Source of the DNA: Bosea sp. Tri-49
GTDB taxonomy: Bacteria > Pseudomonadota > Alphaproteobacteria > Rhizobiales > Beijerinckiaceae
Length of the DNA: 64,000 nt
Direction: 5' to 3'
Assembly: GCF_003952665.1 (NCBI RefSeq)
Contig: NZ_CP017946.1
Coordinates: forward strand, 310,001-374,000
Position numbers and translations under genes: made by a program. Every line of letters starts with the position of its first letter. Position 1 is the stretch's first letter. This document shows, piece after piece, positions 12,605 through 38,284 of this stretch. The notes under the pieces were generated by a model. The model had not been told where the DNA came from and made no database searches. It worked only from the letters and a program-made list of their open reading frames with translations.

Positions 12605-12626
12605 CAGCTGAAGCTCGTTTTCCGGC

Positions 12627-12770
12627 ATGGCAAAACTGACAACGATGATCGTCTTCGATTCCGGGGCGCGGATTGACCCTGGCAAGATCGCGCTGCTCGA
12701 GAGCATTCGCGATACCGGATCGATCTCGGCCGCGGCCCGTAGCATGGTATGGATTGTAAGCGCGTCTTGA
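12627..12770 (+). pseudogene. N-terminal remnant of a ModE-like winged-helix regulator
   Basis: A 47-codon frame starting ATG at 12627 encodes VFDSGARIDPGKIALLESIR then TGSISAAARSM. This is the N-terminal winged-helix of ModE-type (LysR-like HTH) molybdate regulators, and it breaks off in the recognition helix with an unrelated tail and a stop. The rest of the gene is absent. It lies at the left edge of the 26-kb block next to the truncated MFS fragment, which points to a deletion or insertion junction around 12745. Confidence 0.75.
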
Positions 12771-12892
12771 CGTTGCCTGAGAGCATAAATGCGCCTTCGG
12801 CGATCTGGCTGTGGCAACGCGCCTAGACCTGCTGCCGATCCGCCAAGGCGTCCCCAAACTGTGAATCCAAAACCCGACGTAGTGTCCGTGCT

Positions 12893-13915
12893 TCAGTGTT
12901 TGACCACTTTAGCGCCCCGGATGGGCTCGGGCGGCGGCGCTGCCGGGGCGGAATAGCCAAGCGGGAAGGCAATCGTGACCAACGCAAGCGTGCCCTGCGG
13001 CCGGTTCTCGACACTGACCTCGCGCAGGACCTTCAGGCGAGCGGAAACCGGCGTGCCGGCGACAGTGAAGGAATAGCTGATCGTGCCGCCGACGGCAGTC
13101 GTACGGCCCTTATAAGCTCCCAACGAGGCTCCCGCGCCGCTATCGCCACTGATCTGCTGGTAATGCGAGAACAGGGCGCCGATCGAGAACTCCTTGCTGA
13201 GATACTGGCTGATCGCGAGGTCGGCGTGGACGGCGTTGCCGCTCTTGTAGTCGGTATCGTTGTTCTTGCCGTTGATCTCGAAACCGACGGCGCCGGAGAT
13301 GTCGAGGCCGATCTTGGGGTCGAGCCAGGTCGCAGCCGCATAGACATCGCCGATCCAGCGGTTGAACGACAGGTTCGAGAGCGCACCGTCCCGATAGGTT
13401 CCCGATGGAATGCTGACCGAGCCGCCGACCTGCCAGTGGAAATTCCCCGCATGCCAGCCGACGAAGCTGGAGACGACCGGGTCGCCGAAGAGGAAAGCCG
13501 AGTCGCGCTGCTTGACGCCGAATGCTCTGCCCAGCCGCGGCGCGGCGATGACGGCTCCTGCGCTGACACGAGGATCGCCGAACGGCAAGGACACCGCAAA
13601 GCCAAGATTGCCGCCGAAGATCTGCAGAGGGGTGATCCAGGTCGGCGTCATAAAGTTTACGCGCGCCTGCACCTTGACGTTGGCGAGAACCGCGCCGCCG
13701 ATCTGGGTTCGGGTCGAGGCCGAGAGACGGCCTGAATAGGAATAGAAGTCGTTCTCGAAGTAGAATCCGGGTGGCGGAACGATGCCGGCAGCCGGGCCGC
13801 GAAGGCCAGGAACAAAAAGACTTGCCCCGCTTTCAGTGGCCATTGCCGAACTGCAACCGATCGATGCGCCGATACAGATCGCAGCACTCCAGAAGGCGCT
13901 CCGGGATCGAATCAT
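12893..13915 (-). CDS. SphA-like outer-membrane transporter (phenol MetA_deg family)
   Basis: 340 residues with a signal peptide (about 1-26, ending AMA). The rest is rich in alternating beta strands (for example NDTDYKSGNAVHADLAISQYL, AVGGTISYSFTV) and has the GFYFENDFYSYSG start typical of the SphA/phenol-degradation MetA outer-membrane family, probably a barrel for hydrophobic substrates. The end has a Pro-rich tail. A copy of the block's shared dyad motif lies about 230 bp upstream. A related but broken outer-membrane protein gene with the same kind of upstream motif sits at the other end of the block (37.8 kb). Confidence 0.8.
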   Translation of the reverse strand: MIRSRSAFWSAAICIGASIGCSSAMATESGASLFVPGLRGPAAGIVPPPGFYFENDFYSYSGRLSASTRTQIGGAVLANVKVQARVNFMTPTWITPLQIFGGNLGFAVSLPFGDPRVSAGAVIAAPRLGRAFGVKQRDSAFLFGDPVVSSFVGWHAGNFHWQVGGSVSIPSGTYRDGALSNLSFNRWIGDVYAAATWLDPKIGLDISGAVGFEINGKNNDTDYKSGNAVHADLAISQYLSKEFSIGALFSHYQQISGDSGAGASLGAYKGRTTAVGGTISYSFTVAGTPVSARLKVLREVSVENRPQGTLALVTIAFPLGYSAPAAPPPEPIRGAKVVKH

Positions 13916-14136
13916 GGTCTCATTTCCGGCAAGAGTTGCTGGCGAGGCTGAGCGGCGCAGATATCCCGGTCAAGTTGCTTGCTTCTGCGCAGAAACAATA
14001 ACTGAGGACAGGGCGTGCGGCCATCGTGGTCGGCAATACTGCCTGCCAATAATGGTCGTTCATCATGATGTCGGCAGGGGGCATCATCGGCTCCGCAGGA
14101 CGGGCCTGATGGTACGGGCATCGCCCCTGACATCTC

Positions 14137-14274: not shown

Positions 14275-15549
14275 CTAAGGACGGCCGATCGGGTTGAGCG
14301 GTGGCAAGGCTGACGGCTGGATCCGCCGCTTCTCGAGCCTGACGCTGCCGATGCGAAGCGCGAGCTTTGCGAGTTCGACCCCGCTCTGCCGGGACCATTT
14401 TTCACCCTGGCCGAACAGGCTGCGCTCGAGCCGGTTGACCAGAGCGTTCAGACGGCTGTCCTGCCCGAGACGTTGCCGGGCACCGGGCGACAATCGCGAC
14501 GACCAGACCCGCAATGCGCGGTAGGTCGCGGAAGCATCGCCGGTTCTGGCAGCCTTGCGCAGGGCTTTGCGGGCGAAGGCCTCGGAGCTCAGGTGGCGCT
14601 GTCGGTGCCGGCGCCAGGCCACGATCAGCTGGGGCCTGAGCTGAACCAGGAGCCACAGCAACAAGGCGCTGCCTGACCCGCCGACGATGATACCCTGCCA
14701 GCCTCCGATCAGGGCTCGCCAGTCCGGTTGCAATGGCGCCGCGGCTGCGACGGCTATGGTGATCCCGTCCAGCGTTTCGGAGCGAAGCTGTCTGTCGTCG
14801 ATGTCCCACCAAGGTTGCGTCAGCGCTGGCAATGCGTAGGTGCCCGGCTTCTCGAAGACGTAGGTGACCTTGTCGGTGCGAATGCCTTCGACGGAACCTC
14901 GATTGATCTTGTCGTCGATGGCCGGCGGGTCGACATAGGCGCGCACCCCTGCGGGTGCGGTGAAACGAAACTCGGCCATGCCCAGCGCCGGGACATCGGC
15001 GGCCCGGCGTCGGATGATGCGGGTGATCGCGCCGCCGACCTTGAAGGTCGACGACGAGGCAGGAGACCAGCTCTCGCTCACGCTGACATCCGATGCGGCG
15101 AGGACGGGGCCGGACGGATCGATCCCCGCAGGCACGGTGACAGCGAAACGCAGTGGCTGCCCCCTGACCGATCCGATCGGGTCGCCCTTCCGATCGAGCA
15201 GCGTCACATCGGCGGCAGGAACCTGGATGTCGCCGCCACGTCGGGGGAATACGACGAATTCGAAGGTCTGTCCGACATAATCCTGGCCATCGACGCTGTC
15301 GCGGACGGTGAGCGCCTGCGTCTCGAAGCGCATGATCTGCGCGCCGGAAGCCTCCGTGATCTTGACCAGGGGCGGTCGCAGCATTTCCCCGGGGAACATG
15401 ACCTTGATGTGCAGCCGCACGGGTTGGCCGATGACGATGCCCTCGGATGGAACGATCGATGTCTGGACCAACGGGCCCGTGGTCGGCGCCTGCGCGAGAG
15501 CTGAGCTCGATAAGCAGCAGAGAAGAAAGAGTTGAAGGAGCCGGATCAT
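14275..15549 (-). CDS. BatD-like membrane protein
   Basis: 424 residues: a signal peptide (1-19, ending ALA), an extracytoplasmic beta-rich region starting LVQTSIVPSEGIVIGQPV as in BatD/aerotolerance proteins, one membrane helix near 295-315 (IIVGGSGSALLLWLLVQL) and a basic cytoplasmic tail. The start overlaps the preceding TPR gene (ATGA), so translation is coupled. BatD accompanies MoxR ATPases and BatA/BatB von Willebrand proteins, thought to form an envelope complex. It is the last gene of the long minus-strand operon. Confidence 0.83.
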   Translation of the reverse strand: MIRLLQLFLLCCLSSSALAQAPTTGPLVQTSIVPSEGIVIGQPVRLHIKVMFPGEMLRPPLVKITEASGAQIMRFETQALTVRDSVDGQDYVGQTFEFVVFPRRGGDIQVPAADVTLLDRKGDPIGSVRGQPLRFAVTVPAGIDPSGPVLAASDVSVSESWSPASSSTFKVGGAITRIIRRRAADVPALGMAEFRFTAPAGVRAYVDPPAIDDKINRGSVEGIRTDKVTYVFEKPGTYALPALTQPWWDIDDRQLRSETLDGITIAVAAAAPLQPDWRALIGGWQGIIVGGSGSALLLWLLVQLRPQLIVAWRRHRQRHLSSEAFARKALRKAARTGDASATYRALRVWSSRLSPGARQRLGQDSRLNALVNRLERSLFGQGEKWSRQSGVELAKLALRIGSVRLEKRRIQPSALPPLNPIGRP

Positions 15550-16190
15550 GGGCCGCTCCGTTCGGCTGCCGACTGAAGCTGGTAGGAGAACTTCACGCGC
15601 AGGAAGTCCGCGGGCCTGGTCTGGACCTGTTTCAGCCAGAGCGCGCGGACGGCGTCGTCCGACATCGCCTTGCCTGGCTCCTGAAGCGTCGTGTCCTCGC
15701 CGCCTTTCTTGGTCTTGTCGTAGACGATCTCGTCGGGCTTGGATTCAGTGTCGTCGTTGACGCCGCCCTCGGCCTTCGTGCGCTCGCCGCGAATGCGCGC
15801 GATCTCGCGATTGGTGGCCGCGTCCGGCCAGCCGGGACGAAGGGCGAGTGCCCGGTCGTAGCGCTTCACTGCGCCCTCGTACTGGCCGAGCATGACGAGG
15901 GCATTGCCCTGGTCATAGGCGCTCTCGGCCGTGTCGAGCGCGGCGAAGGCCTGCGCGGCGGACTTGAAGTCTCCTGCCCGGAACAGCGCGATGCCACGCC
16001 AGAGCGGGTCGCGGAAGGCCTCCGCAGCAGCGGCTGGCTGGCTTCGATCCAGCAGGATGCGCCCGCGCTGGTCGGAGGCCAGGAAAAGGTTGCGCCAACC
16101 GAGGCGTTCTGCGGCACCCGCCAGTGCAGCGCACGTCGCCATGGCGATGATCGCATAGGGAAGCCACGTCTTACTGCGGGCGGGCGTCAT
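15546..16190 (-). CDS. TPR protein of the Bat cluster (BatC-like)
   Basis: About 214 residues from the ATG at 16190, which overlaps the stop of the upstream gene by 4 bp (ATGA). One N-terminal membrane helix (YAIIAMATCAALAGA) is followed by TPR-type helices (AFRDPLWRGIALFRAGDFKS, then ESAYDQGNALVMLGQYEGAV and ALRPGWPDAATNREI) and a charged tail. It corresponds to the BatC position in bat clusters. A protein-protein scaffold on the membrane is inferred. Confidence 0.8.
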   Translation of the reverse strand: MTPARSKTWLPYAIIAMATCAALAGAAERLGWRNLFLASDQRGRILLDRSQPAAAAEAFRDPLWRGIALFRAGDFKSAAQAFAALDTAESAYDQGNALVMLGQYEGAVKRYDRALALRPGWPDAATNREIARIRGERTKAEGGVNDDTESKPDEIVYDKTKKGGEDTTLQEPGKAMSDDAVRALWLKQVQTRPADFLRVKFSYQLQSAAERSGP

Positions 16191-17104
16191 GTCAGCACCC
16201 ATCCTCGGCGGAACCAGAGCAGCACGAACAGCGCAAGGAGCGGGGTGAGCCAGTATCCCGCTTCCTGCCAATGGCGGCCTTCGCCCGCGACGCCCGCGAT
16301 GCGGCCGACGCGATCAAGGCGGCGGGCGATGGCGGTGATGTCGGCTTGGTCCGGCGTGATCGCAATGACGGTCGCACCTAGCGCACGTCCTGCATCGCTG
16401 AGGCTGGCGGCGTCGAGATCGGGCGGAAGCAGGGACAGGATCGTGCTCTCGCCCGCCGCCGCATCGCCGAGGCGCGAGAGCTGATCACCTGCAACCATGT
16501 CGGCCATCACCAGAATCGAGCCACCATGCCCGCCGCCGGACAGGATGCGCCGTGCCATGGCTACGGCATTGGCAAGGTCGTCGCCTTCCCTCGGCATGAT
16601 GCCGGGCTCGAGGGCTTTCGCGAGATCGAGCACGACCTTGCCGTCCGGGGTTGGCGGCAGCACGACGTGGGACGATCCGGAATAGGCGATGAGGCCGGTG
16701 GCGGCGCCTTCACGCAGCGCAAGCAGGTCGGAGAGCTTCTGCCGCGCCCGGTCGAGCCGGGTCGGGGCAAGGTCCTCAGTCATCATCGAAGGCGTGACCT
16801 TGAGCACGACCACGACCGGGGGCCTGGCATCGGCGAAGGGCGAGGGCTCGCGCTGCCAGGCCGGTCCAGCGACGGCGATGGCGGAGAGCGTCCAGCCGAT
16901 CAGCAGCAGGAGATTCGGCGTGATCCGAGACATTCTGCCGCTGTCGACCAGGAGATGCTTCAGCAATTCGGGATCGATGACCCGGCGCCAGCGGCCCGCC
17001 GTATCCGCAGCCCGATGTTCGAGCCAAACCAGGAAGATGGCGGGCGCGAGGGCGAGGAGCCAAAGCGGGCGCTCGAAATGGAAGGCGGAGAGCACTTCGA
17101 TCAC
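16187..17104 (-). CDS. BatB-like von Willebrand A domain protein with degenerate MIDAS
   Basis: About 305 residues from a GTG at 17104 that overlaps the previous stop (GTGA). Two N-terminal membrane helices (FERPLWLLALAPAIFLVWL; LLLLIGWTLSAIAVA), a vWA domain (about 90-270) and a C-terminal helix match the BatA/BatB family. Where the metal-binding motif DxSxS should stand, the sequence reads LKVTPSMM: the first Asp is Lys-Val and only the last Ser remains. Metal-dependent ligand binding is therefore doubtful, while the paralogue just upstream keeps DLSGSM. Confidence 0.82.
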   Translation of the reverse strand: MIEVLSAFHFERPLWLLALAPAIFLVWLEHRAADTAGRWRRVIDPELLKHLLVDSGRMSRITPNLLLLIGWTLSAIAVAGPAWQREPSPFADARPPVVVVLKVTPSMMTEDLAPTRLDRARQKLSDLLALREGAATGLIAYSGSSHVVLPPTPDGKVVLDLAKALEPGIMPREGDDLANAVAMARRILSGGGHGGSILVMADMVAGDQLSRLGDAAAGESTILSLLPPDLDAASLSDAGRALGATVIAITPDQADITAIARRLDRVGRIAGVAGEGRHWQEAGYWLTPLLALFVLLWFRRGWVLT

Positions 17105-18123
17105 GACGCCCCCCGTGCGGCCGTGGCCTGATCCGCTTGCGAATGCCGAGATGGGCGGCGACGCCACAGCTGGCGCAGCGCCTGCGTCAGCAATGACAGG
17201 GCGAGTGCGGCAGCGAGCGGAACCCAGTAGATGTCCCGCTTCGGGCGGAAGCTGACCGTGTCGATCCTGCGGGTCTCGATCTCATCGAGGCGCTGGTAGA
17301 TTCCGGCGAGCTGGTCGCGATCAAGTGCCCGGAAGAAGCCACCTCCCGTCGCGCTTGCGACCTGCTTCAGGGCAGCCTCATCGAGCTTGTCCTCGCCCGC
17401 AGCCGTGGGGTCGCCGACGGCGACCGCATGAATGACGATGCCACGGTCCTTGGCCACCCCGGCGGCTTCGGCCGGCGGCACCTTGCTGGCGGTGTCGTTG
17501 CCGTCGGTCAGGGCGATGATCGTCTTCGCCTTGACGGTGCTCTTGTCGAAGAGCCCGATGCCGAGGCCGATCGCGTCGCCAAAGGCAGTACGCGGACCGG
17601 CCATTCCGACGACGGTATCGCGCAACATGGCGCGGCTGAGCTCGAGATCGGTGGTGAAGGGGACGAGCGCGAAGGGCGCGTCGCCGAAAACCACAACGCC
17701 GACCCGATCGCCCTTGCGACGCGAGAGGAAGTCGTCGAGCACCTGCTTGACCGCCGTCAGCCGATCGATCGTCTTGCCCGAGGCATCGACGAAGTCCTTG
17801 GTGTCCATCGATCCCGAGAGGTCGACCAGCAGCAGGAGGTCGCGCGTCGGGCGGTCCTGGTGGAGCGGCGGCTCGATCCATTGCGGGCGTGCCAGAGCTG
17901 CCAGGGTCAACAGCCAGGAGAGGATGAGGACGATCAGCGGAAAGGTACGGCGCGGCGCCACGACGCCGCCGCGATGCGGCTGCTGACCGGTCAACCGGGC
18001 GAGGCGATCGAAGAACGGGACCCGCAGCCCGGTTCGGTTGCTGGCGTGGGCGGGCAGGAGCAGCCAAACCGCGATGGGGAGGGGGACAAGGAGGGCGAGC
18101 CAGGGGTAGACGAAGGTCAGCAT
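17101..18123 (-). CDS. BatA-like von Willebrand A domain membrane protein
   Basis: About 340 residues. Two N-terminal membrane helices (about 5-25 and 62-79) flank an RVPFFDRL segment as in BatA. A vWA domain follows with an intact MIDAS DLSGSM at about 101-106 and the later motifs GPRTAFGDAIG and ALTDGNDTAS. A final helix lies near 310-325. A TTG at 18129 is an alternative start. The MIDAS side probably faces the periplasm or binds a partner protein; MoxR-type ATPases are thought to remodel such vWA proteins. Confidence 0.87.
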   Translation of the reverse strand: MLTFVYPWLALLVPLPIAVWLLLPAHASNRTGLRVPFFDRLARLTGQQPHRGGVVAPRRTFPLIVLILSWLLTLAALARPQWIEPPLHQDRPTRDLLLLVDLSGSMDTKDFVDASGKTIDRLTAVKQVLDDFLSRRKGDRVGVVVFGDAPFALVPFTTDLELSRAMLRDTVVGMAGPRTAFGDAIGLGIGLFDKSTVKAKTIIALTDGNDTASKVPPAEAAGVAKDRGIVIHAVAVGDPTAAGEDKLDEAALKQVASATGGGFFRALDRDQLAGIYQRLDEIETRRIDTVSFRPKRDIYWVPLAAALALSLLTQALRQLWRRRPSRHSQADQATAARGAS

Positions 18124-18125
18124 CG

Positions 18126-18623
18126 TCAAGCCTCCGCGCCGGGGGACTTGCGATCGCTGCGAATCCAGATGCTGGCCTGGCTGATGAGCTCGCGCAGTTC
18201 GGAAGGACCGGGCGCAGGCTCGGCCACATAGACCCCGCTCAGTATTCTCCGGATCGGCCGTGCGTCGAAATCCACGCTGGCTTTGCTTGCGACGAAATCC
18301 GCCCAGGCCTCTCCGCTGAGGGGCGCCACCTGTTCGCGGCCATAGTCCACGATGGCGACACGCTTGAGAACGGACGAGATGCGCGCAACGCCGACGGGAT
18401 CGCCGCGCTCGATCGCGCCAGCGAGCGCATTCAGCTCGGCGATGGCCGCCCGGCGATAGGCCCGTGCTCGATAACGCTGCATCGCGTGCCAGATCGCGAC
18501 GGCGATCAACGCTGTGCAGGCCGCGCCGAGAATCCAGATCCCGGGCGCAGGCGGCCAGAACGAGATCTCCGGCGGGAGCGTCAGGTCGCGCAGGTTGGCA
18601 AGGCTTCCCGGATCGCTGCTCAT
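18126..18623 (-). CDS. DUF4381 membrane protein
   Basis: 165 residues: PPEISFWPPAPGIWILGAAC leads into one membrane helix and an R/A-rich helical segment, then a conserved WADFVASK region. This is the DUF4381 pattern, a constant member of MoxR-DUF58-vWA clusters. The ATG at 18623 overlaps the DUF58 stop by 4 bp. Specific function unknown. Confidence 0.82.
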   Translation of the reverse strand: MSSDPGSLANLRDLTLPPEISFWPPAPGIWILGAACTALIAVAIWHAMQRYRARAYRRAAIAELNALAGAIERGDPVGVARISSVLKRVAIVDYGREQVAPLSGEAWADFVASKASVDFDARPIRRILSGVYVAEPAPGPSELRELISQASIWIRSDRKSPGAEA

Positions 18624-19623
18624 GCCCGCACCTGGTTCCGTACGGCGGTCGCGCGCTGCTGCGTGCGCTTGCCGATCAGCTCGCGCAACTGCCGGGCGAC
18701 ATCGCGATCGGTGGAAATCGGCAGGACCGGTATCGCTCGGTGTCGCGAGAGCTCAGCCAGCTGCGCGCGCCAGTCGTCGTGCTCCCGCGAGAAGCGGCTG
18801 CGCAGCGTCTGCGCGGAGGAATCGATCTCGATTTCTCCCAGAGCCGAGCTGAACACAGCGGGGCCGACATCCGGCAGGCTCTGTTCGAGCAGATCATGAA
18901 CATAGATGGCCAGCACATCGTTATGCGCACATAGGCGCGTGATCAGACGGGCGGTCTCGTCGTCGGCGCCGGCAGCATCCGAAATCAGGCAGATCAGCCA
19001 GTCGTGCGTGGCGGCGCGTACGGCGTACTGCAGCGCCTCGTTGAGCTTTTGGGGAGCAGTTTGCGAGCCGATGGCCTGGCCCAGGGCCCGGTTCTGCCGC
19101 ACCACTTCGCCAAGCACGCGCACGACTCCCGCATCTCGTCCCTGGGGCTTGATTTCGACGATGTCATCGTCGCCGAATACGATGGCGCCGACCCGGTCGC
19201 CGAGCGAGGTGACGCGCCAGGCGGCAAGGGCCGCTGCTTCCGCCGCCGCGACCGATTTCATCGCCCGCCGGCTCCCGAAGAACATCGTGCTGCGCTGGTC
19301 GACAAGCAGCAGCACGGGCCGATCACGCTCCTCCGAATAGACGCGAACATGGGGGAACCGAGGCGGGCCGTCGCCAGCCAGTCGATCGAGCGCGTATCAT
19401 CCCCCTCGAAATAATGCCGCAGCTCCTCGAAATTCAGGCCGCGGCCTCGCAGCCGCGAAGCGTGGCGGCCAGTGAGCAGGCTGTGGACCGGCTGGCGGGG
19501 CAGGAAGCTGAATCCCTGCGCGCGATGCTTCAGCCTCAGCAACTCGTCGAGCGTCACGAAGGCGCGCGCTTCCGTTTCCGGTGCGGCGGCGTCAGTTCCT
19601 GGGTTCTCGCGTATCAAGCCCAT
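18620..19623 (-). pseudogene. DUF58 protein gene with an apparent frameshift
   Basis: Two overlapping frames together make one normal DUF58 protein of about 334 residues. Frame one (from ATG 19623) carries the family hallmark RGRGLNFEELRHYFEGDD then SIDWLATARLGSP; frame two resumes with HVRVYSEERDRPVLLLVDQR and continues to the stop at 18620. The shift falls in a run of five C (minus strand, about 19353-19357) where six would restore the frame. It is either a sequencing or assembly error in the homopolymer, or a real inactivating or phase-variable mutation. DUF58 proteins partner MoxR and BatA-type proteins, so a true break would affect the whole cluster. Confidence 0.85.
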
Positions 19624-19636
19624 GAGACGCCTCGCG

Positions 19637-29877: not shown

Positions 29878-29911
29878 GGCCGTGACCTTAGGCAAGGCGT
29901 GATGCAGCCTC

Positions 29912-29931
29912 CATCAGGGAAAACCCTAGGC
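29912..29931 (-). promoter_or_regulatory. Block-wide dyad motif, copy 2 (promoter of the sulfatase-Bat operon)
   Basis: On the minus strand: GCCTAGGG-TTTT-CCCTGATG, sharing the exact core GGGTTTTCCCT with copies 4 and 6. It begins 35 bp upstream of the FGE start codon, the place of a -35 region or activator site. Same orientation relative to its gene as the other copies. Confidence 0.6.
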
Positions 29932-30063: not shown

Positions 30064-30477
30064 TTATCGATTGCAGCGGTTGTAGCGCGTCTCGACCTCC
30101 GGAAAGTCCGGATCGAAGCGGACCAGCGTGTTGTCGTCCTTGAAACGGACGGAGACGCTCATGGTGTCGAAGGTGATGGCGTCCTTGCAGCTCAGGAGGA
30201 AGCTCAGGACATCGCCCTTCTGCTTCGACGAGATCAGATCACAGGTCGAACGTACGCCGCGGACATGTTTGCCGCTGACGATGAAGCCGGACCAGACGTC
30301 GCCCTTCTGCTTCTTGAAGGTCAGGCGGCCTTGACGCGCGACGAACACCTGGTCGCACTGCGCCGCATCGCTGACCCAGGCGCCCTGAAGGCGATCGGGT
30401 GAGGCGAAGGCTGCGCTCGCGGCGAGCAGGAGTGGCGAAGCTGCGATGGCCGCCAGGGCGGTTGTTCTGACACTCAT
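30064..30477 (-). CDS. Small secreted protein of unknown function
   Basis: 137 residues from ATG 30477 (an ATG at 30495 is possible). A signal peptide (ending AFA) is followed by DRLQGAWVSDAAQCDQVFV, a pattern seen in small secreted lipocalin-like or beta-sandwich proteins. It has four Cys in the mature part, including one two residues before the C-terminus, so disulfides are likely. I do not recognise the family. It lies between the Gly-rich protein gene and the FGE promoter, on the same strand as both. Confidence 0.75.
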   Translation of the reverse strand: MSVRTTALAAIAASPLLLAASAAFASPDRLQGAWVSDAAQCDQVFVARQGRLTFKKQKGDVWSGFIVSGKHVRGVRSTCDLISSKQKGDVLSFLLSCKDAITFDTMSVSVRFKDDNTLVRFDPDFPEVETRYNRCNR

Positions 30478-30582
30478 GCTTCGTCTGCCTTTCAAACGGT
30501 CGGGCGATCCGAGGGATTGGAATGCCCCGCGCCGACGTCGGCTGGTGCGGGAGGCGTTGATGGGATGACCTGCGGCTACGCC

Positions 30583-32823
30583 CTATCGGCGGAAGCCGCC
30601 GTGGAATCCGCCTCCCCGGAAGCCTCCGCCGCCGTGAAAGCCGCCAAAGCCGCCACCCTGGAAACCGCCTCCGCTAAACCCGCCGCCGGCGAAGCGTCCG
30701 CCGCCGAAGCCACCGCTACCGCCGCGGAATCCTTCCAGCCGTTCGCCATGGAAGCGTCCGATCTGCTCGCGGTCGAGATGACCGATCTCGCCTCCGCCGG
30801 CATTGGCCCAGCGTCCGTTCTGGTTTTGCTGCCAACCCTGCGCGCCGCGCCGGAAGACCTCGCCGTTGCGTCCGGCATAGTGGTCGTTCGCCAGCGGGTG
30901 GTTCTGGGTGAAGTTGGCGCGCGCGTTGGCCCGCTCGCCGGGCGCAAGCCCGCCGCGCCCCGTCAGTCGGTTGTCGAACCGGCCGGTCGCCCGGTTGTCG
31001 ATCCGGCTGTGGACGGCATTGTTGGTCCAGCGATTGTAGATGTTGGCGTGGTTGAAGTTGAACTGATTGAACTGGTTGAAATTGTTGATCACGACATTGT
31101 TGTGGCCCCAGCCCCAGCCACCGCCCCAACCCCAGGCGCCGCCCGCCCAGGCCGCGCCGGCGATGGCACCGAGCGTGAAGCCAGTGACGGCCCCCCAGGC
31201 AAAGGCCGCGCCATAGCCGTAGGTCAACGGCGCCGGATACCAGGCCGCGCCGATCCAGGCCGGATAGACATAGCCGGTGCCGTAGACCACCACGCCGCCG
31301 GGCGCGGCGACGGTGCCGTAATAGCCCGGCGTATAGCCGACATAGACCACCTCGGGCGTCGCACTGTAGACCTTGACGTAGGTGACGAAATGCAGCGGCG
31401 AGCTCGGCGGGATCGTGTAGATCGCCGCTGGCACCTCGGTCGCGACCGCCCAGGGGCCACTCGCGCCGCTGGCCACGAACCAGACGCCGCTCTGGACGGC
31501 ATAGTAGGCAGCACCCGCCTTGATGACCGGAACGGCGGCGTTCACGACATAGTCGAGGCTGGTGCCTTCGATCGGCTTGAGCTGCGGCTTGCCGTCATAG
31601 TGAACGGTGGGCTTGGCCTTCTTTCGGTCGACGGTCGCTGTCTGCGGAATCTGGTTGTCGATCAGCGAATCCTGCGCCTGCACCGTTCCGCTGACGGAAG
31701 CCAGAACCTCGCCCTTGGGGTGACTGTCCGGGATCTTGGCGAAGTCGGCGGGCAGCTTGTCGCTCGCGGCGAAGTTCCACGGGCCGTTTGCAAGCGATTT
31801 CGACTGGAACCAGCGTCCGGCGACCAGGACGTAATTGTCCTGGCTGGCGACGTCGACGATGACGTGGCCGCTGGTGTTCTTGATGTAGAGCAGTTGGGTA
31901 TCCGGGATCGGCAGATACTCCGGCTGCCCAGCGGTCTGGATCAACTCGGCCGGCGACAGGCTGACATGCAGGCGTGGAACGGCGCCGGCCGCGACGGCCT
32001 GGGCGATGTCGGCAGGGGGCTCATCCATCAGGTTGACATGCGTGCCGGCGGCCTTCTGGGCCGCGGCCAGCGCAGCGGGCGGGTTGGCGGCAACCGCCCA
32101 CGGACCCTCGGGCGCCTTGGCGCTCCACCATTTTTTGAGCGCGCGCAGATAATAGGTGGCGCCCGCTTCGTCGAAGAGGATCAGTGCCGGCGTATTGATC
32201 ACGCGCAGCAGCTTGCTGCCGGCCACCTGCCGCAGCTCCGGCTTGCCGTCGACCAGGACGAGCAGCGCCGGGCTTTCGCTGAAGATGATCTTCGGCGGCT
32301 CATTGCGCACCGCGACGCTCTGGCTCGTCTCGGCCTCCGAGACGGCAAGGCTGGATTGAAGGCGCGACAGGGAAATGCTGCGCAGGCCGCCCGTCGCATG
32401 CTGGCGCAGGCTCGCAAGCACGGTATCGGCGCTGCCGGCATCCGACGGGAAGTTCGCTTTCGTGACCTCGATATTGTCGAGCGTGACCAGATCGCTCTGC
32501 TTGTCGATCGAGGTGCGCGCCTTGAACCAGACCACGCCGAGCGTCGGCGCTTCGCTGGCCGGGCGCTTTATCGACACGGCCGCGCGCGCCTCGATGACGC
32601 TGTCGCGCCAGCGCTCGATCTGCGGCTGGTAGATCGTGATGTCCTGGCCCGTGTCGGCAATGACGCGCGGCCAGGTCTGATCGGGAGCGGCTTGCGCCGC
32701 CGTGGCCGTCGCGGCGGCACGCGGCGCCTGGGCCCAGGAAACGGTTGGCGGCGGCACGAGCATGCCGGCAGTAACAATGACGGCGACGGTGTTGCGGAGC
32801 CGGGCCTTCAGACTGACTTGCAT
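30583..32823 (-). CDS. Large secreted protein with Gly/Phe-rich tail (annotated elsewhere as carbohydrate-binding V/XII type)
   Basis: 746 residues. A signal peptide (ending SWAQA) leads into repeated beta-type segments with pairs like LYIKNTSGHVIVDVASQDNY / VLVAGRWFQSKSLANGPWNF and GVWFVASGASGPWAVATEVP, then a Tyr/Gly/Pro-rich segment (VGYTPGYYGTV) and a hydrophobic Ala/Gly/Trp stretch near 550-590. The final 60 residues are almost only Gly, Phe, Arg and His (GGFRGG units). I recall relatives under the name carbohydrate-binding family V/XII, but no function is proven. It follows the HlyD gene, so export or surface assembly is possible. Confidence 0.78.
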   Translation of the reverse strand: MQVSLKARLRNTVAVIVTAGMLVPPPTVSWAQAPRAAATATAAQAAPDQTWPRVIADTGQDITIYQPQIERWRDSVIEARAAVSIKRPASEAPTLGVVWFKARTSIDKQSDLVTLDNIEVTKANFPSDAGSADTVLASLRQHATGGLRSISLSRLQSSLAVSEAETSQSVAVRNEPPKIIFSESPALLVLVDGKPELRQVAGSKLLRVINTPALILFDEAGATYYLRALKKWWSAKAPEGPWAVAANPPAALAAAQKAAGTHVNLMDEPPADIAQAVAAGAVPRLHVSLSPAELIQTAGQPEYLPIPDTQLLYIKNTSGHVIVDVASQDNYVLVAGRWFQSKSLANGPWNFAASDKLPADFAKIPDSHPKGEVLASVSGTVQAQDSLIDNQIPQTATVDRKKAKPTVHYDGKPQLKPIEGTSLDYVVNAAVPVIKAGAAYYAVQSGVWFVASGASGPWAVATEVPAAIYTIPPSSPLHFVTYVKVYSATPEVVYVGYTPGYYGTVAAPGGVVVYGTGYVYPAWIGAAWYPAPLTYGYGAAFAWGAVTGFTLGAIAGAAWAGGAWGWGGGWGWGHNNVVINNFNQFNQFNFNHANIYNRWTNNAVHSRIDNRATGRFDNRLTGRGGLAPGERANARANFTQNHPLANDHYAGRNGEVFRRGAQGWQQNQNGRWANAGGGEIGHLDREQIGRFHGERLEGFRGGSGGFGGGRFAGGGFSGGGFQGGGFGGFHGGGGFRGGGFHGGFRR

Positions 32824-32862: not shown

Positions 32863-33804
32863 TCAGAAAGGGTTGATGTAGTTGGTGATGGCGATCTGGC
32901 GCAGCAGCACCTTGCGGATGATGTGCGCGGCCTTGACCCGGTCGGTGAAGATCGCCGCGTCTCCCGTCGCGCCGGCCGGCAGGGAGGCCGCAAAGGCCTG
33001 GTCGTCGAGCTTGACGCGCACGACGAAGGGAGCCGACTGGATCGCCTTCGGCGTGACCGCTGCGCCTGAGACCTGGGTCTGGCCGGTCGAGATCGCCTGC
33101 AGCACGCTTTCGACCTTGCCGGGGAAGACCTGGCCGGGCGCATATTTGAAGGTCAGCTCGACCGGTTGCCCAGGCGCGATGTAGCGGGCGTCGATCTGGT
33201 TGATCTCGACGCCGATGATCGTGTTGGCGGTGTCGACGAAGGCCATTACGGGCGACAGCGGCAGGTTCGCGACGCGCGCGCCCTTGCGCAGAGCGAGATT
33301 GGTGACATAGCCAGCGGCGGGAGCGCGGACGACGGTCTTGTCCAGGTTCCACTGCGCGCCCTCGAGCTGCGCCTTGAGCTGGTCGGCCTCAGCCTGACGC
33401 TGCTCGACGTCGAAGGCGCGGCCCGATCCTGTGCTCTGCAGCTGCGTCATCTGCGCAAGCCGCTGCTCCTGCAGCTTGTATTGCGCCTCCAGCGCCTTGA
33501 GCTGCGACTCGTAGGGTTTGGGATCGATCTTGAAGAGGACGTCGCCAGCTTTCAGAGGGACATTCGCCGCCACCGGCACATCGACGACTTCGCCGGCGAC
33601 GTCCGGCACGATGGCGATCGATTGCCGCACGACCAGCGCCGGCCCCTGTGGCGCACCCCAGTTCATCGGAATGAACAGGCCGACCAGCAGCAGCAGCAGG
33701 ACGAGGACCGGCGAAACCTTCCAGAACAGGTTGAACGGAACGATCCTGAGCTTCACCAGGATGAATAGCAGCGCAAGATAGGTGTTGAGCAGAACGACGA
33801 TCAT
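32863..33804 (-). CDS. HlyD-family membrane fusion protein (YiaV-like)
   Basis: 313 residues. Two hydrophobic segments at the N-terminus (about 3-17 and 30-46) anchor it in the inner membrane. A barrel-sandwich/lipoyl half (AIVPDVAGEVVDVPVAANVP, then LKAGDVLFKIDPKPYESQLK), a coiled-coil hairpin and the second half (TVVRAPAAGYVTNLALRKGA) follow. It overlaps the DUF3302 gene by 4 bp, exactly the YiaV-YiaW pairing known from enterobacteria. No partner transporter gene is present in the block. Confidence 0.88.
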   Translation of the reverse strand: MIVVLLNTYLALLFILVKLRIVPFNLFWKVSPVLVLLLLLVGLFIPMNWGAPQGPALVVRQSIAIVPDVAGEVVDVPVAANVPLKAGDVLFKIDPKPYESQLKALEAQYKLQEQRLAQMTQLQSTGSGRAFDVEQRQAEADQLKAQLEGAQWNLDKTVVRAPAAGYVTNLALRKGARVANLPLSPVMAFVDTANTIIGVEINQIDARYIAPGQPVELTFKYAPGQVFPGKVESVLQAISTGQTQVSGAAVTPKAIQSAPFVVRVKLDDQAFAASLPAGATGDAAIFTDRVKAAHIIRKVLLRQIAITNYINPF

Positions 33805-34070
33805 CGTGCCGCCTCCTGCTCAGCGGAGCGGCGGACGGGGACCGACGGCACGTCGACATAGGCCCAGATCAGGACGATGGGCCAGAGCACGAAGCCTAAG
33901 AACAGCGTCACCCAGCCACCGACGGCGACCGCGTCGGCCCAGGGATGGTTACGTCGCCTGGCGACCATCCCGGGCAGCATCGCCATGAAGACGATGACGA
34001 AAATCGTGCTCGCCGCCAGAACGACCAGAACGATCCAGGCGAAAATGTCCAATCCGCTCACGTCGCCCAT
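33801..34070 (-). CDS. DUF3302 membrane protein (YiaW-like)
   Basis: 89 residues with two membrane helices (about 7-30 and 49-69) and the Asp-Ile-Phe-Ala-Trp start and WADAVAVGGWVTLFLGFVLW segment of DUF3302. It is translationally coupled to the HlyD-type gene. A near-perfect copy of the dyad motif starts 51 bp upstream of its ATG, so it opens the three-gene unit DUF3302-HlyD-Gly-rich protein. Confidence 0.85.
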   Translation of the reverse strand: MGDVSGLDIFAWIVLVVLAASTIFVIVFMAMLPGMVARRRNHPWADAVAVGGWVTLFLGFVLWPIVLIWAYVDVPSVPVRRSAEQEAAR

Positions 34071-34180: not shown

Positions 34181-34864
34181 TCAGGGCTCGACGATCTTGT
34201 TTCGGACTGCGTAGCGCACGAGAGCGGCGGTGGTGTTCAGATTCAGCTTGTGCATGACGGCGGCGCGGTGGGTCTCGACCGTCTTCAGGCTGATGTTGAG
34301 TATCCGGCTCGCTTCCTTGCTGGAATTGCCTTCGGCGATCAGCTGCACGATCTCACGTTCGCGCGGCGTCAGCGTGCTCGTTTCGCTTCCACCCGGCTGG
34401 GACAGGTAGAGCTTGAGCAGCGACTCGTTGATCTGCCCCGTGAAATAGGGCTGGCGCCGCGCCAGCGCATCGAGCGCAGCGAGCAAGGTGCGATCGGCAT
34501 CCGATTTGACGAGGAAGCCGCGAGCGCCTGCCGTGAGCACCTCGCGGATCAGCACGTCGCTGTCGTGCATCGTGAAGATCAGCACCTGCGTTCCAGGCGA
34601 TTGCGCGCAGATATGGCGCGTGAGCTGTGCGCCATTCATGACCGGAATGGAATAATCGACGATAGCGATGTCCGGTTTGGTTTCGATCGCCAGATCAAGC
34701 GCTTCCCGGCCATCCTGGGCTTCCGCAACGACCTCCCACCCCGCTCGGCTTTCGATGACCGAGCGGACGCCGCGGCGGACGATGTCGTGATCGTCGGCGA
34801 TCAGCACACGCACCGGTTTTCGACCGGGCCGCGCGCTTTCGCGCCAATCGGGCGGCGAATTCAT
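34181..34864 (-). CDS. NarL/FixJ-type response regulator
   Basis: 227 residues. The receiver domain (about 18-135) has the acidic pair in IADDH and the phospho-acceptor Asp in AIVDYSIP, with the conserved Lys in GFLVKSD. A LuxR-type helix-turn-helix (about 160-225) reads LTPREREIVQLIAEGNSSKE then LNISLKTVETHRAAVMHKL. The sensor kinase is encoded divergently at 35528. I infer that this regulator binds the dyad motif repeated in the block, because LuxR-type domains bind such inverted repeats as dimers. Confidence 0.92.
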   Translation of the reverse strand: MNSPPDWRESARPGRKPVRVLIADDHDIVRRGVRSVIESRAGWEVVAEAQDGREALDLAIETKPDIAIVDYSIPVMNGAQLTRHICAQSPGTQVLIFTMHDSDVLIREVLTAGARGFLVKSDADRTLLAALDALARRQPYFTGQINESLLKLYLSQPGGSETSTLTPREREIVQLIAEGNSSKEASRILNISLKTVETHRAAVMHKLNLNTTAALVRYAVRNKIVEP

Positions 34865-35097: not shown

Positions 35098-35117
35098 TCC
35101 CCGGGTTTTCCCTGATA
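35098..35117 (+). promoter_or_regulatory. Block-wide dyad motif, copy 4
   Basis: TCCCCGGG-TTTT-CCCTGATA on the plus strand. The right arm matches the consensus fully and the core GGGTTTTCCCT is exact. It is 411 bp upstream of the kinase start and 234 bp from the divergent response regulator start. Confidence 0.55.
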
Positions 35118-35527: not shown

Positions 35528-37552
35528 ATGCAGAGAGAAACGGCCTCGCTGGGGCTGGTCAAAGGGGAGCGCCGGAGGCTCGTTCGGGCAGTCCGGATCG
35601 CCCTGTTTCTCAGTGCGGCGATTCCCATCATCGCCGGTCTCATCTACGCGCAGTCGAGCTACCGCCAGGCGTCGGCAGAAGCCCGCGAGTTGCTCGGTCG
35701 CACTGCCGTTCTGGCGGCCGAGCACAGTCTGCGCGTGTTCGAAGGCGCGGATTCGGCGCTCTCCGAGATTTCCCAGCTGCCTATCGATGTACCGAGCGAG
35801 TACGAGAAATCGCTCGAACGGATGACCGCGATTGTTAACTCGCGGCAGCCTGTGCGCATCCTCGGCGTGACCGACGGCAGCGGCGACATCAAGATTTCGG
35901 CGCCGTGGCGCAACTCCATGAATGTTTCGTGGCGGGATTACTTCAAGGCCCATCGCGATGGGACCGTCCGCGGCAGCCTTTATGTCGGGGCGCCGATCCT
36001 CGGCTCGAAAGATACCGCCTTCAGCGTGCCGGTCAGCCGCGCGATCAACGACGCGGCGGGGACATTCGCCGGGGTAGCGTTCATGGCGCTCGATCGCGGC
36101 TATGTGGGGCAGTTCTTCGAGAGGATCTCGGGACCTTCGGTCGAGGTGATCGGCCTCTTGTCGGCATCGGGGGCTCTGATTGCCGAGCATGGCAACGAAA
36201 CCGTCGGCCCAGACCGTCGACGGACGCTCGCAGTGCGGATCGAGCAGACTCGACCTGAAAGCATCGGGCAGGCCTATCTCGACGTCGACGACGCCGATGG
36301 CGAGTCGAACATCGTGGCGCTCAGGGCGGTCGGTGACTATGGGCTCTATGCCTTCGCGAGCTTGAGGCAGAGCGCCATCCGCGCCGCCTGGTGGCTCAAG
36401 GCTCGCGAGGTCCTCATGCTGCTGATGCTGCCGATCGCCGGACTTGCGCTGGCGGTCTACCTTGCCGAGCGGCAAATGCACAGCTTCAAGGATCTGTTGG
36501 CAGCTCTTGCCTCCAATCGCGCCAGATATCGGGCGATCTTCAATAGCTCACCGGACTGCAACTTCCTGATTGGATCCGGTGCGGCCGCGGACGCGCTGGT
36601 CTTTCTCGAGGTCAATCAGAACACGGAGCCGATCTTCGGCCTGAGCGCCGACGGGCTCGTCGGAAAGAACGTGCATGACGTTCTTCAGTCAAGCGAGGTG
36701 GCGTTCATCTCGTCGTGCTTCCATTGCTGCCAGCAATCGCGCGGCATTGTGCAACGTGAACACCGGGTCGAGTCGAGCTCGAATCCTGGCCATTGGGAAA
36801 TTCGGATAGCCCCGCTTCCGGGGCAGACTGGAACTGCCATCGGCAGCATCCGGAACATTGCAAAGCAGAAGCACCTGACGGCGTCGCTGCGCGACCTCAC
36901 CGTCCGCCTGTTGCAGCGGCAGGATCAAGAGCGGCGACAGATCGCGCGCGATCTCCACGATTCTGCCGCTCAGAATTTACTGGCCGCCAGTCTCGAGCTG
37001 AAGCTTGCGGCTGATGCGCTGTCACAGCGTCACGGCCCATGGCATGCCCATCTCGGCCGGATGCGGGACTTCATCGAGAATACGCAAAAGGAAATCCGGG
37101 GGGTGTCCTATCTGCTGCACCCGCCAATGCTGGATGAATCCGGGCTTCCCAACGCTCTGCATTGGTTGGTCGATGGCTTCAAGCGCCGAAGCAACATTCA
37201 TCTGGAGTTGAGGATCGGAGGCGCTCTCAACGATCTGAGATTGCCCGGGGAGGTGGAGACGGCCCTGTTCCGCGTTGCGCAGGAGGCGCTCGCGAACGTC
37301 CACCGCCCTGCCGATGCCAGCGCGGCACGCCTTTCGCTCGATATCGATGAGCACGGCATGTTGGAATTTCGCGTTGAGGACGATGGCACAGCCGCGCGGA
37401 GCGCAAGCGGAAAGACCGTAGTCCGGGAGGGCGTCGGCATCTCCGGCATGCGCGAGAGGCTGATCGCATTCGACGGAACGCTCACGTTTCGCGTTTCCAA
37501 CGAGGGGGCCATCCTGTCGGCGAAGTTGCGTCTCGTGCCGAAGGCGGCCTGA
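35528..37552 (+). CDS. Membrane histidine kinase, HisKA_3 type, with periplasmic sensor and PAS domain
   Basis: 674 residues. Membrane helices near 22-42 and 293-314 enclose a periplasmic sensor region of about 250 residues of the PDC/CACHE kind (VSWRDYFKAHRDGTVRGSLY). A PAS domain (about 330-450, RYRAIFNSSPDCNFLIG) and the HisKA_3 dimerisation segment RQIARDLHDSAAQNL follow, with the phospho-acceptor His near 477. The ATPase domain has GVGISGMRERL near the end. This kinase class pairs with NarL/FixJ regulators, here the divergent gene at 34181. The ligand is unknown. Confidence 0.92.
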   Translation: MQRETASLGLVKGERRRLVRAVRIALFLSAAIPIIAGLIYAQSSYRQASAEARELLGRTAVLAAEHSLRVFEGADSALSEISQLPIDVPSEYEKSLERMTAIVNSRQPVRILGVTDGSGDIKISAPWRNSMNVSWRDYFKAHRDGTVRGSLYVGAPILGSKDTAFSVPVSRAINDAAGTFAGVAFMALDRGYVGQFFERISGPSVEVIGLLSASGALIAEHGNETVGPDRRRTLAVRIEQTRPESIGQAYLDVDDADGESNIVALRAVGDYGLYAFASLRQSAIRAAWWLKAREVLMLLMLPIAGLALAVYLAERQMHSFKDLLAALASNRARYRAIFNSSPDCNFLIGSGAAADALVFLEVNQNTEPIFGLSADGLVGKNVHDVLQSSEVAFISSCFHCCQQSRGIVQREHRVESSSNPGHWEIRIAPLPGQTGTAIGSIRNIAKQKHLTASLRDLTVRLLQRQDQERRQIARDLHDSAAQNLLAASLELKLAADALSQRHGPWHAHLGRMRDFIENTQKEIRGVSYLLHPPMLDESGLPNALHWLVDGFKRRSNIHLELRIGGALNDLRLPGEVETALFRVAQEALANVHRPADASAARLSLDIDEHGMLEFRVEDDGTAARSASGKTVVREGVGISGMRERLIAFDGTLTFRVSNEGAILSAKLRLVPKAA

Positions 37553-37575
37553 CCGGGAGAGCCATCGCCTTACAG

Positions 37576-37595
37576 CCTGAGGGTTTTCCCTTATG
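37576..37595 (+). promoter_or_regulatory. Block-wide dyad motif, copy 6 (upstream of broken outer-membrane gene)
   Basis: CCTGAGGG-TTTT-CCCTTATG on the plus strand, with the exact core GGGTTTTCCCT. It lies about 240 bp before the ATG of the outer-membrane protein pseudogene, similar to the distance of copy 1 from the SphA-like gene. The 281-bp gap 37553-37833 holds nothing else recognisable. Confidence 0.55.
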
Positions 37596-37833
37596 GGCGC
37601 CATCTCCAGCGGAGGTCCGGCCGGGAAGGGGGCTTAGCCGCCAGTGAGGCTCGCCGGGCGTGTTAGCCCAGCCGATGGCAGTTTCGTGCCATCGGCTCGC
37701 TCGCTTTCAGGGCTTTACCCGATCCTCTGGAACTCGCGAATCTCGTTTAGTTTTCCTCTATCGCGTCCGCTTCCCGAGCCGGCGCATGACGCCCACACCG
37801 TCCGAACGCTGATCGCGAAGGAAAAGGACGGCC

Positions 37834-38284
37834 ATGCACCGACGGGGAAAGCGGATAGCGGTCGTGGCCGCGCTGGTCGCATCGAGTTCGCTTGCCCACG
37901 GCGAAGACGCGGAGGAGCTTTCGAAGAAGCTCGCCAATCCGATCGCTAAGATGATCAGCATTCCGCTTCAGGGAAATTTCGATTTCTCAGGCGGGCCGCA
38001 TCGGAATGGCCTCGCCTCGACCAAGAATATCCAACCGGTCGTTCCGTGCCGCTCAATCAGGACTGGAGCCTGATCATCCGCAAGGTGTTGCCGGTGGTTC
38101 ACCGTGACCGCAACGGCGCGGCCGATGGAACCGGCATTGGCGAGACATCACGCAGAAGTTCCTCTTCACCCCCACGCCCAATAAGAAAGGGTTGATCTGG
38201 GGCTTTGGCCCGGTCTTCCTGTGGCCGACCGCCACCGACGACCGCTGCGGAAGTGGAAAATGGGGCGCAAGCCCGGCAGCTCTG
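37834..38284 (+). pseudogene. Frameshifted, truncated outer-membrane transporter gene
   Basis: The start encodes a signal peptide (ending SLAHG) and EELSKKLANPIAKMISIPLQ, the N-terminus of a family of outer-membrane transporters of the SphA/MetA_deg kind. After NIQPVV a one-base loss shifts the frame (the other frame continues PLNQDWSLIIRKVLPVVHRD). A second shift near 38140 leads to ITQKFLFTP, then GLIWGFGPVFLWPTATDD, and the gene breaks off near WGASPAA, joined to a thyA fragment. The C-terminal half is missing. Confidence 0.82.

Follow-up and report, generated by a model that had tools for sequence, protein, structure and literature searches.

In the soil bacterium Bosea sp. Tri-49, a block of 21 genes (12893-37552 of the 64-kb window, the whole stretch of DNA that was analysed) was bounded by direct repeats and is apparently a horizontally acquired sulfatase island. 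We give a probability of roughly 0.5 to the reading that the island serves a calcium-dependent periplasmic sulfatase, which would be matured by its own formylglycine-generating enzyme (FGE) and by a NorQD-like MoxR-VWA machine. The coupling of the sulfatase to the MoxR-Bat genes was well supported, and the recurring pairing hints at a so far undescribed step on the way to an active sulfatase. Metal loading by the MoxR-Bat set would follow by analogy, with calcium as the putative metal. No description of the island, or of this sulfatase/MoxR-Bat maturation route, was found among the open-access papers searched.

Gene content of the block

The gene parts were identified by Pfam and NCBIfam scans (Table 1), which confirmed the families named in the first-pass annotation, but the gene total was 21 instead of about 19 and the DUF58 gene was frame-broken. 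Twenty block genes lay on the minus strand, and only the kinase gene lay on the plus strand.

Table 1. Features of the block and its flanks (positions in the window)
Feature	Position	Strand	Remarks
thyA (presumed), complete, left flank	11356..12270	+	G007 protein 96% identical
Left direct repeat	12038..12605		thyA 3' end and internal MFS fragment; ~139 bp shorter than right copy
SphA-like outer-membrane protein	12893..13915	-	Phenol_MetA_deg PF13557, E 4e-49
BatD-like	14275..15549	-	PF25607 above cut-off; BatD PF13584 below cut-off
TPR protein	15546..16271	-	
BatB, VWA	16187..17167	-	degenerate MIDAS (KVTPS)
BatA, VWA	17101..18129	-	intact MIDAS (DLSGS)
DUF4381 membrane protein	18126..18623	-	E 1e-33
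DUF58	18620..19623	-	frame-broken: 18620-19315 and 19258-19623
MoxR AAA+ ATPase	19637..20650	-	E 2.5e-61
Exported HAD phosphatase	20653..21657	-	relative of PDB 4ovy
DUF1254/DUF1214 protein a	21694..22716	-	
DUF1254/DUF1214 protein b	22774..24171	-	
MFS/spermidine-synthase fusion	24168..26732	-	NF037959
HdeA-like protein	26729..27082	-	E 1e-10
S1-type sulfatase	27152..28861	-	CTAGR active site, conserved calcium ligands
FGE	28867..29895	-	both catalytic cysteines
AGGGAAAACCCT dyad	29916..29927		upstream of FGE-sulfatase genes
Small exported protein	30064..30495	-	no Pfam family matched
Gly-rich exported protein	30583..32823	-	no Pfam family matched
HlyD/periplasmic adaptor	32863..33804	-	YiaV-like in the first-pass annotation
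DUF3302 membrane protein	33801..34070	-	E 1e-27; YiaW-like in the first-pass annotation
NarL/LuxR-type response regulator	34181..34864	-	
CGGGTTTTCCCT dyad	35102..35113		between regulator and kinase
Histidine kinase	35528..37552	+	PAS, HisKA_3; Cache match below cut-off
AGGGTTTTCCCT dyad	37580..37591		after kinase gene
Right direct repeat	38289..38995		thyA 3' fragment (38289-38521) and 3' end of complete MFS gene
MFS transporter, complete, right flank	38571..39896	-	

The sulfatase possessed a Sulfatase domain (PF00884) and the calcium ligands Asp, Asp, Asp and Asn, as expected of S1 sulfatases, which use calcium (PMC8746622). In the aligned family D80 and D81 were found in 271 of 273 members, and D336 and N337 in all 273. 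The active site read CTAGR instead of CxPxR, with Ala in 272/273 aligned members; the Pro of the C/S-x-P-x-R maturation motif was thus not found, and the Cys/Ser and Arg positions of the motif were retained. Compared with S1 formylglycine sulfatases such as arylsulfatase A (PDB 7aj0), the domain, calcium ligands, Cys and Arg were the same, whereas the block family was set apart by CTAGR, GKNHLG and a conserved LYHLNAEEEPE stretch. The signal peptide was twin-arginine-like, as judged by eye. A second sulfatase of the genome (G000:C1:5173049) had no other block part within the surrounding 35 kb.

The FGE carried an FGE-sulfatase domain with both catalytic cysteines (GGSFLCAPNYC), and its best solved relatives were mostly FGEs. 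No other gene of the genome was a close FGE match, and the radical-SAM sulfatase maturase (TIGR03942) gave no genome match at E 0.001, so the radical-SAM route was rejected and the block FGE presumably reads CTAGR. Domain and cysteines were like those of known FGEs, but CTAGR as the presumed substrate motif differs.

The Bat (Bacteroides aerotolerance) operon combines MoxR, DUF58, two VWA proteins, a TPR protein and BatD. The same families formed a complete MoxR-DUF58-BatA-BatB-TPR-BatD set in the block, a call for which PF25607 scored above the Pfam cut-off and the BatD model itself below it, with DUF58 frame-broken; the set of the block differs in its linkage to a sulfatase. DUF58 was a single ORF in 69 of the loci compared (median 311 aa); in Bosea sp. 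Tri-49 it was split into two frames, a break that may impair the machine. The MIDAS motif DxSxS was observed in BatA at 72/72 loci and in BatB at 56/72, the window's own BatB being one with no intact MIDAS. Membrane segments were recognized in BatA and BatB by eye. NorQD, described as inserting iron into nitric oxide reductase (PMC13036017, PMC9976466), has the same pair of a MoxR-class AAA+ ATPase and a MIDAS-bearing VWA partner, here MoxR and BatA; the block adds a second VWA protein, DUF58, DUF4381, TPR and BatD, its partner is a sulfatase, and metal loading is what we infer for it. In addition, a second, more distant MoxR paralog was present in the genome of Bosea sp. Tri-49.

MxaACKL load calcium into methanol dehydrogenase. 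With the mxaR, S, A, C, K, L gene row (PMC6414531) the likeness was by gene row only: a similar MoxR-DUF58-VWA-VWA-TPR row, with a MoxR 48% identical, adjoined a PQQ dehydrogenase and PQQ-synthesis genes at locus L238 of G384, a genome from another genus of the same family. Among 20 PQQ-dehydrogenase loci (L237-L256) only L238 gave MoxR-Bat matches, among which DUF4381 was not recognized. For TIGR03075, the family of PQQ alcohol dehydrogenases, there were 0 matches in the Tri-49 genome, where the set was thus not associated with a PQQ methanol dehydrogenase, and methanol dehydrogenase was rejected as the MoxR-Bat client in this genome. The metal-enzyme analogy of the MoxR-Bat set is a thin one.

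The shared regulatory motif claimed for the block proved real: AGGGWWWWCCCT, allowing at most one mismatch, had four matches in the window versus 0.42 expected (sd 0.65) from 100 shuffles, the largest shuffle count being three. Three of the four were intergenic within the block, and the AGGG-A/T-CCCT dyad goes with the response regulator.

Flanking repeats and mobility

The direct repeats were made of the 3' ends of a gene which we take to be thymidylate synthase (thyA) and of a convergent MFS-transporter gene. Their copies were 92% identical, which bears out the flanking duplication noticed earlier. In the sister genome G007, whose flanks were 91-95% identical, the sulfatase system was on a separate contig and absent from thyA, while thyA and the MFS gene were separated by 13.2 kb that carried another cassette, and there was no duplication; no undisturbed thyA-MFS junction was found among the genomes examined. 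Direct repeats on both sides and a patchy distribution in the genus (fusion in 11/67 genomes, MoxR in 18/67), the two marks expected of a horizontally moved island, were observed. Mobility of the block, also proposed in the first-pass annotation, is supported by the duplication and by the different location in G007, but no integrase or transposase family had a Pfam match among the block genes scanned (the remaining small ORFs were partly scanned). The island would have arrived by homologous recombination through the ~700-bp thyA-MFS segment.

It is rather doubtful that the repeats came from a tandem duplication inside this lineage and not from a circle or fragment that entered and integrated. 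The identity of the copies is close to that of the flanks with G007, so an old local duplication could have produced them; a recent one, on the other hand, should have left near-identical copies, and the arrangement in G007, with its own system on another contig, speaks against a local origin.

Co-occurrence of the sulfatase and the MoxR-Bat set

The sulfatase family, searched at E 1e-80, gave 85 matches in 46/398 Pseudomonadota genomes, and 60 loci around 60 of these matches were sampled (two overlap, L156, L157 and L183 are short, and some further loci are cut by contig ends). Near the sulfatase, MoxR was found at 27/60 loci, and DUF58, BatA and BatB at 26/60 each; the MoxR-DUF58-BatA/B set was present at 26/60, the 27th MoxR locus (L186) holding a lone MoxR of 44% identity. 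The linked sulfatase/MoxR-Bat set occurred in 24/42 genomes sampled. On the sulfatase tree the neighbour state changed at least 12 times, 8 of the changes being forced by well-supported branches. Around canonical sulfatases the set was seen at 0/11 loci versus 26/60 (Fisher p 0.004), a small control of 13 loci chosen by the analyst from 46 matches, of which two with a CTAGR sulfatase were removed, the motif of L224 is unreadable, L221 also has a CTAGR sulfatase, and L221 and L231 are cut short. The Alphaproteobacteria sample had matches in 5/172 genomes, too few for counting.

Within the genus, the sulfatase family was present in 24/67 genomes, and MoxR in 18 of these 24 versus 0/43 others (p 1.4e-11, with thresholds set beforehand and relatedness ignored). 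A post hoc split at 68% sulfatase identity separated MoxR presence into 18/18 and 0/49. In 5/18 genomes (G013, G041, G044, G056 and G080) MoxR and sulfatase lay over 10 kb from each other or on separate contigs; the G056 match was at a contig end, where adjacency is possible. The MoxR set of G013 and of G080 adjoined another family member (52-54%) and not the closest one. In six genus genomes the family was represented by members of 51-61% identity, and a MoxR search at E 1e-100, which leaves more distant paralogs uncounted, gave no match. Since MoxR had no match near the sulfatase at 33/60 loci and was missing in these six genomes, the machine is no general requirement of the family.

The combination that recurred was the CTAGR sulfatase, FGE, HAD, MoxR-DUF58-DUF4381-BatA-BatB-TPR-BatD, accessory exported proteins and the kinase/regulator pair. 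Twelve same-genus loci retained 12 to 18 of the 21 parts and G384 retained 16; sulfatase, fusion and MoxR-Bat were kept together in Pseudomonas, Aeromonas, Cupriavidus, Variovorax, Dyella and Nitrospira loci. The sulfatase and fusion occurred with no MoxR in the stretch examined at three Flavobacteriaceae loci, one Nitrospira locus and one gammaproteobacterial locus. Recurring parts were FGE (15/60 near the sulfatase), HAD (23/60), DUF1254, HlyD-DUF3302 and SphA, while HdeA, the fusion and the kinase/regulator pair were rarer. The fusion was found at 8/60 sulfatase-seeded loci and, at E 1e-3, in 11/67 genus genomes, strong (at least 76%) in six; it was therefore rejected as the cluster core and is optional.

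It is hardly credible that unrelated envelope genes came together here by chance: gene order varied among the sulfatase-seeded loci and from lineage to lineage, and outer parts were present at some loci and missing at others, but the parts are held together across many genera, with 26/60 versus 0/11 and 18/24 versus 0/43, and in far more than twos or threes. Of the single functional unit first suggested, the core of sulfatase, FGE, HAD and MoxR-Bat stands, while the outer set was variable, with the kinase/regulator pair, HdeA and the fusion optional.

Proposed maturation of the sulfatase

In the proposed mechanism, the kinase and regulator would turn on the block genes through the candidate AGGG-A/T-CCCT sites. 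In the cytoplasm the FGE would turn the cysteine of CTAGR into formylglycine, and the sulfatase would then be exported. At the inner membrane MoxR and BatA, aided by DUF58, DUF4381, BatB, TPR and BatD, might remodel the sulfatase in a way that brings calcium into its active site or holds it there, by analogy with NorQD and the iron of nitric oxide reductase. For part of the CTAGR family, an ATP-driven MoxR-VWA step that loads or locks the calcium after formylglycine formation and export, the third in maturation, is tentatively proposed. SphA and HlyD-DUF3302 could carry substrate or product across the envelope, and HAD and the DUF1254 pair could process the desulfated compound. The fusion has no part in this scheme. 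Handling of sulfated compounds, as suggested before, follows from the sulfatase, but the substrate side is putative; for envelope remodelling no specific support was obtained.

The MoxR-Bat set could instead act on another exported partner (HAD, DUF1254 or a multiheme cytochrome) or on the envelope, the sulfatase being merely co-regulated, which we regard as possible but on balance doubtful. HAD was a frequent neighbour, also at 72/80 fusion-seeded loci, and a multiheme cytochrome was near the sulfatase at 16/60 loci, 13 of them with MoxR. However, HAD had no match at several MoxR-bearing loci (L165, L182, L197 and G063 among them), and the cytochrome query had none at the genus loci, where every MoxR that was present came with its full set. 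MoxR presence in the genus moreover tracks sulfatase identity, a one-sided comparison since HAD was outside the genus-wide search.

It is unlikely that the enzyme is a phosphate or phosphonate ester hydrolase in a cluster which scavenges phosphorus through HAD and DUF1254. Superfamily relatives hydrolyse phosphoric esters (the block enzyme matched PehA far below its cut-off), the sulfatase PyuS is described as acting on both sulfate and phosphate ester types (PMC8746622), and an HAD phosphatase is often nearby; against this, the nearest relatives of known structure go by the names of arylsulfatase and N-acetylgalactosamine-6-sulfatase, an argument from names. Quite improbable is a role of MoxR-Bat in formylglycine formation at CTAGR, a motif that FGE may read poorly with Ala in place of Pro, even if FGE shares the cluster at a quarter of the loci (15/60). 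The serine (STAGR) members at L177, L178 and L181 also had MoxR-Bat, with no FGE match in the stretch, so MoxR-Bat is not tied to the cysteine; furthermore, FGE acts in the cytoplasm, whereas BatA and BatB bear membrane segments.

To our knowledge, MoxR-Bat gene sets are widespread, most having no known client, and we know of no dedicated metal insertase for any sulfatase so far. If the calcium-loading reading is true, the block would encode the first one, which would explain why sulfatase and machine travel jointly across Pseudomonadota, and a new maturation route would be defined for a large sulfatase family. With the CTAGR sulfatase as client, coloured or fluorescent sulfate esters would allow a direct assay of the machine in culturable soil bacteria, in the presence and in the absence of calcium. 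Such a client relationship would also give a handle on the release of sulfate from organic matter by soil bacteria.

Composition and recurrence of the sulfatase block

The block comprised 21 genes, of which only the kinase gene lay on the plus strand and the other 20 on the minus strand, and the parts named in the first-pass annotation were borne out by protein-family scans of the block genes. That annotation had also taken these parts as one system, and it was right: homologous clusters were not confined to two or three of the parts, twelve same-genus loci keeping 12 to 18 of the 21 (18 in G045, 16 in G022 and G046, 15 in the sister genome G007, 14 in G003, G006 and G061, and 12 in G043, G048, G063, G076 and G077). 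In G384, from another genus of the family, 16 of the 21 were kept. The core of the system is the sulfatase, formylglycine-generating enzyme (FGE), HAD protein and MoxR-DUF58-DUF4381-BatA-BatB-TPR-BatD set (MoxR-Bat), with the remaining parts optional. The DUF58 gene, split in the window, was a single ORF in the compared loci (69 loci, median 311 aa); the split could be genuine or come from misreading of the sequence.

The sulfatase family, that is, relatives of the block's exported sulfatase with CTAGR in place of CxPxR at the active site, was found at E 1e-80 in 24 of the 67 genus genomes, and the block's MoxR at E 1e-100 in 18, all of which fell inside the 24 (p 1.4e-11, from counts which ignore relatedness). 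These 18 were exactly the genomes whose best sulfatase was at least 68% identical, a split chosen after seeing the data; the best member was 55-61% identical in the six sulfatase genomes lacking MoxR at this threshold (G009, G019, G024, G051, G064 and G066). Sulfatase and MoxR lay within 10 kb in 13 of the 18, 38 kb apart in G044, and on different contigs in G013, G041, G056 and G080 (G041 and G056 are drafts, and MoxR of G056 is at a contig end). Among the fetched loci, which did not include G041 and G056, the sulfatase half and MoxR half were apart in G013, G044 and G080, and another sulfatase-family member (52-54%) adjoined the MoxR set in G013 and G080.

Across Pseudomonadota, the sulfatase family at E 1e-80 gave 85 matches in 46 of 398 genomes, and 60 of these matches were sampled, each as a locus spanning at most 20 kb. 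MoxR was near the sulfatase in 27 of the 60 loci, and DUF58, BatA and BatB in 26 each, the difference being locus L186 with MoxR alone (44% identity). Other neighbours were HAD (23), multiheme cytochrome (16), FGE (15), SphA (9) and the MFS/spermidine-synthase fusion (8), and rarer ones were HlyD (4), DUF3302 (3), regulator (3), kinase (2), HdeA (2) and the Gly-rich protein (1). Counted by genome, at least one linked set was present in 24 of the 42 sampled. A canonical CTPSR sulfatase used as control query gave 46 matches, many being the CTAGR family itself; 13 loci were hand-picked outside the first list, and two were dropped because their own sulfatase was CTAGR. MoxR or Bat was near none of the remaining 11 (Fisher p 0.004 versus 26/60 and 0.003 versus 27/60). 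In this control the motif could not be read in L224, L221 and L231 were truncated, and L221 had a CTAGR sulfatase as well. On a sulfatase tree of 61 rows, the MoxR-neighbour state changed at least 12 times, 8 forced by well-supported branches (shuffled mean 20.2).

Seeding with the fusion protein, using the best 80 of 227 relatives from a scan of named genomes, recovered sulfatase in 77 loci, HAD in 72, MoxR in 69, BatD in 67, SphA in 29 and FGE in 13; sulfatase, MoxR, DUF58 and BatA occurred together in 67 of the 80, an uneven sample in which Pseudomonas made up 56 loci and several loci ended at contig ends. Beyond Pseudomonas, the set was found in Mesorhizobium, Variovorax, Cupriavidus, Aeromonas, Azomonas, Dyella, Paraburkholderia, Aestuariivirga and one of two Nitrospira loci, in differing gene orders. 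The stretches covered at three loci from Flavobacteriaceae, at the second Nitrospira locus and at one from a gammaproteobacterium contained no MoxR. The multiheme cytochrome c of the table was also present in 51 of the clustered fusion-seeded loci, among them those of a MAG from Flavobacteriaceae (L024) and of Dyella (L074).

Coordinates of the block and of related features (window positions unless a genome or locus is named)
Feature	Position	Remarks
Sulfatase block	12893-37552	between thyA and MFS flanks
Left repeat copy	12038-12605	92% identical to right copy over shared parts
Right repeat copy	38289-38995
DUF58 gene	18620-19623	two overlapping frames
Long thyA allele	11356-12270
tmRNA gene	10331-10723	alphaproteobacterial; about 1.3 kb left of left repeat
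18-bp periodic repeat	5403-5780	within long ORF; 12 overlapping copies of 108-nt reference
Second sulfatase of the window's genome	G000:C1:5173049-5174626	50% identical; twin-arginine-like signal by eye; no other block parts in surrounding 35 kb
PQQ dehydrogenase	G384:C4:101759-103378	about 17 kb from G384 sulfatase system
Lone HAD gene	G024, L117:15558-16601	86% identical to that of block
Multiheme cytochrome c	L065:12823-15186	787 aa, with TPR repeats

Edges of the block at the thyA site

At the left edge, a complete thyA was followed by an internal fragment of the MFS gene, and at the right edge a thyA 3' fragment preceded the MFS gene in its complete form. The left repeat copy was shorter, lacking about 139 bp. 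Such an arrangement would result from one crossover of a circle that came in bearing a thyA-MFS segment, and the copies diverged about as much as the flanks of the window genome from those of G007 (91-95% identity). In G007 a different 13.2-kb cassette lay between thyA and MFS with no duplication, its sulfatase system being on another contig. No integrase family matched among the block genes in the protein-family scans. On these grounds, the block appears to have arrived by homologous recombination. No empty thyA-MFS site was found among the genomes examined. The long thyA allele was common to only 5 of the 24 same-genus genomes searched (68-96% identical), and thyA of the others was about 50% identical to it. 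The lone HAD gene of G024 lay directly after thyA, the same place as the block in the window.

Regulation and sulfatase maturation

The motif AGGGWWWWCCCT, with at most one mismatch, occurred four times in the window versus 0.42 expected: one copy lay upstream of FGE, one between the NarL-type regulator and the histidine kinase, one past the kinase and one within the DUF1254b gene. A relaxed form (A/T-spaced, spacer 3-5, one outer base free) was found in 4 of 4 other scanned loci with the regulator/kinase pair (G080_C18, G061, G006 and G384) and in 0 of 17 scanned system or sulfatase loci without it (p 0.0002; L187 and L190, with weaker regulator matches, were outside the scan). The kinase, whose Cache match was below the curated cut-off, may sense a small molecule outside the cell.

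CTAGR was present in 118 of the 120 nearest proteins listed. Among 273 aligned sequences, picked by similarity or from seeded loci, the active-site positions were C in 270 and S in 3, A in 272 and P in 1, and R in all; calcium ligands D80 and D81 were kept in 271, and D336 and N337 in 273. The STAGR (serine) members L177, L178 and L181 were still accompanied by MoxR-Bat and HAD. The FGE of the block, with both cysteines present, was the one close FGE match in the window genome, a second match being partial (38%), and no radical-SAM maturase matched there. This FGE is thus the candidate for maturing the CTAGR cysteine, if that cysteine is matured.

A possible link between MoxR-Bat and the sulfatase calcium

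Metal insertion in NorQD is driven by a MoxR ATPase with a VWA partner (PMC13036017, PMC9976466), and the calcium of S1 sulfatases is bound by Asp, Asp, Asp and Asn together with formylglycine (PMC8746622). MIDAS was kept in 72 of 72 BatA and 56 of 72 BatB proteins (degenerate in the window's BatB), and in 0 of 69 DUF58 proteins. Locus L238, on contig C3 of G384, showed a MoxR-DUF58-VWA-VWA-TPR row and then a BatD-like gene that scored below cut-off, next to PQQ synthesis genes and a PQQ dehydrogenase, a kind of enzyme also needing a metal. Mxa proteins load calcium. A MoxR row was present in only one of the 20 PQQ-dehydrogenase loci fetched, and TIGR03075 had no match in the window genome.

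The NorQD precedent, sulfatase calcium ligands, BatA MIDAS and the G384 row beside PQQ dehydrogenase fit a role in which MoxR-Bat would load or lock the calcium of the sulfatase. A metal-loading machine for a sulfatase would be a bold reading, and one for which a simple test is possible.
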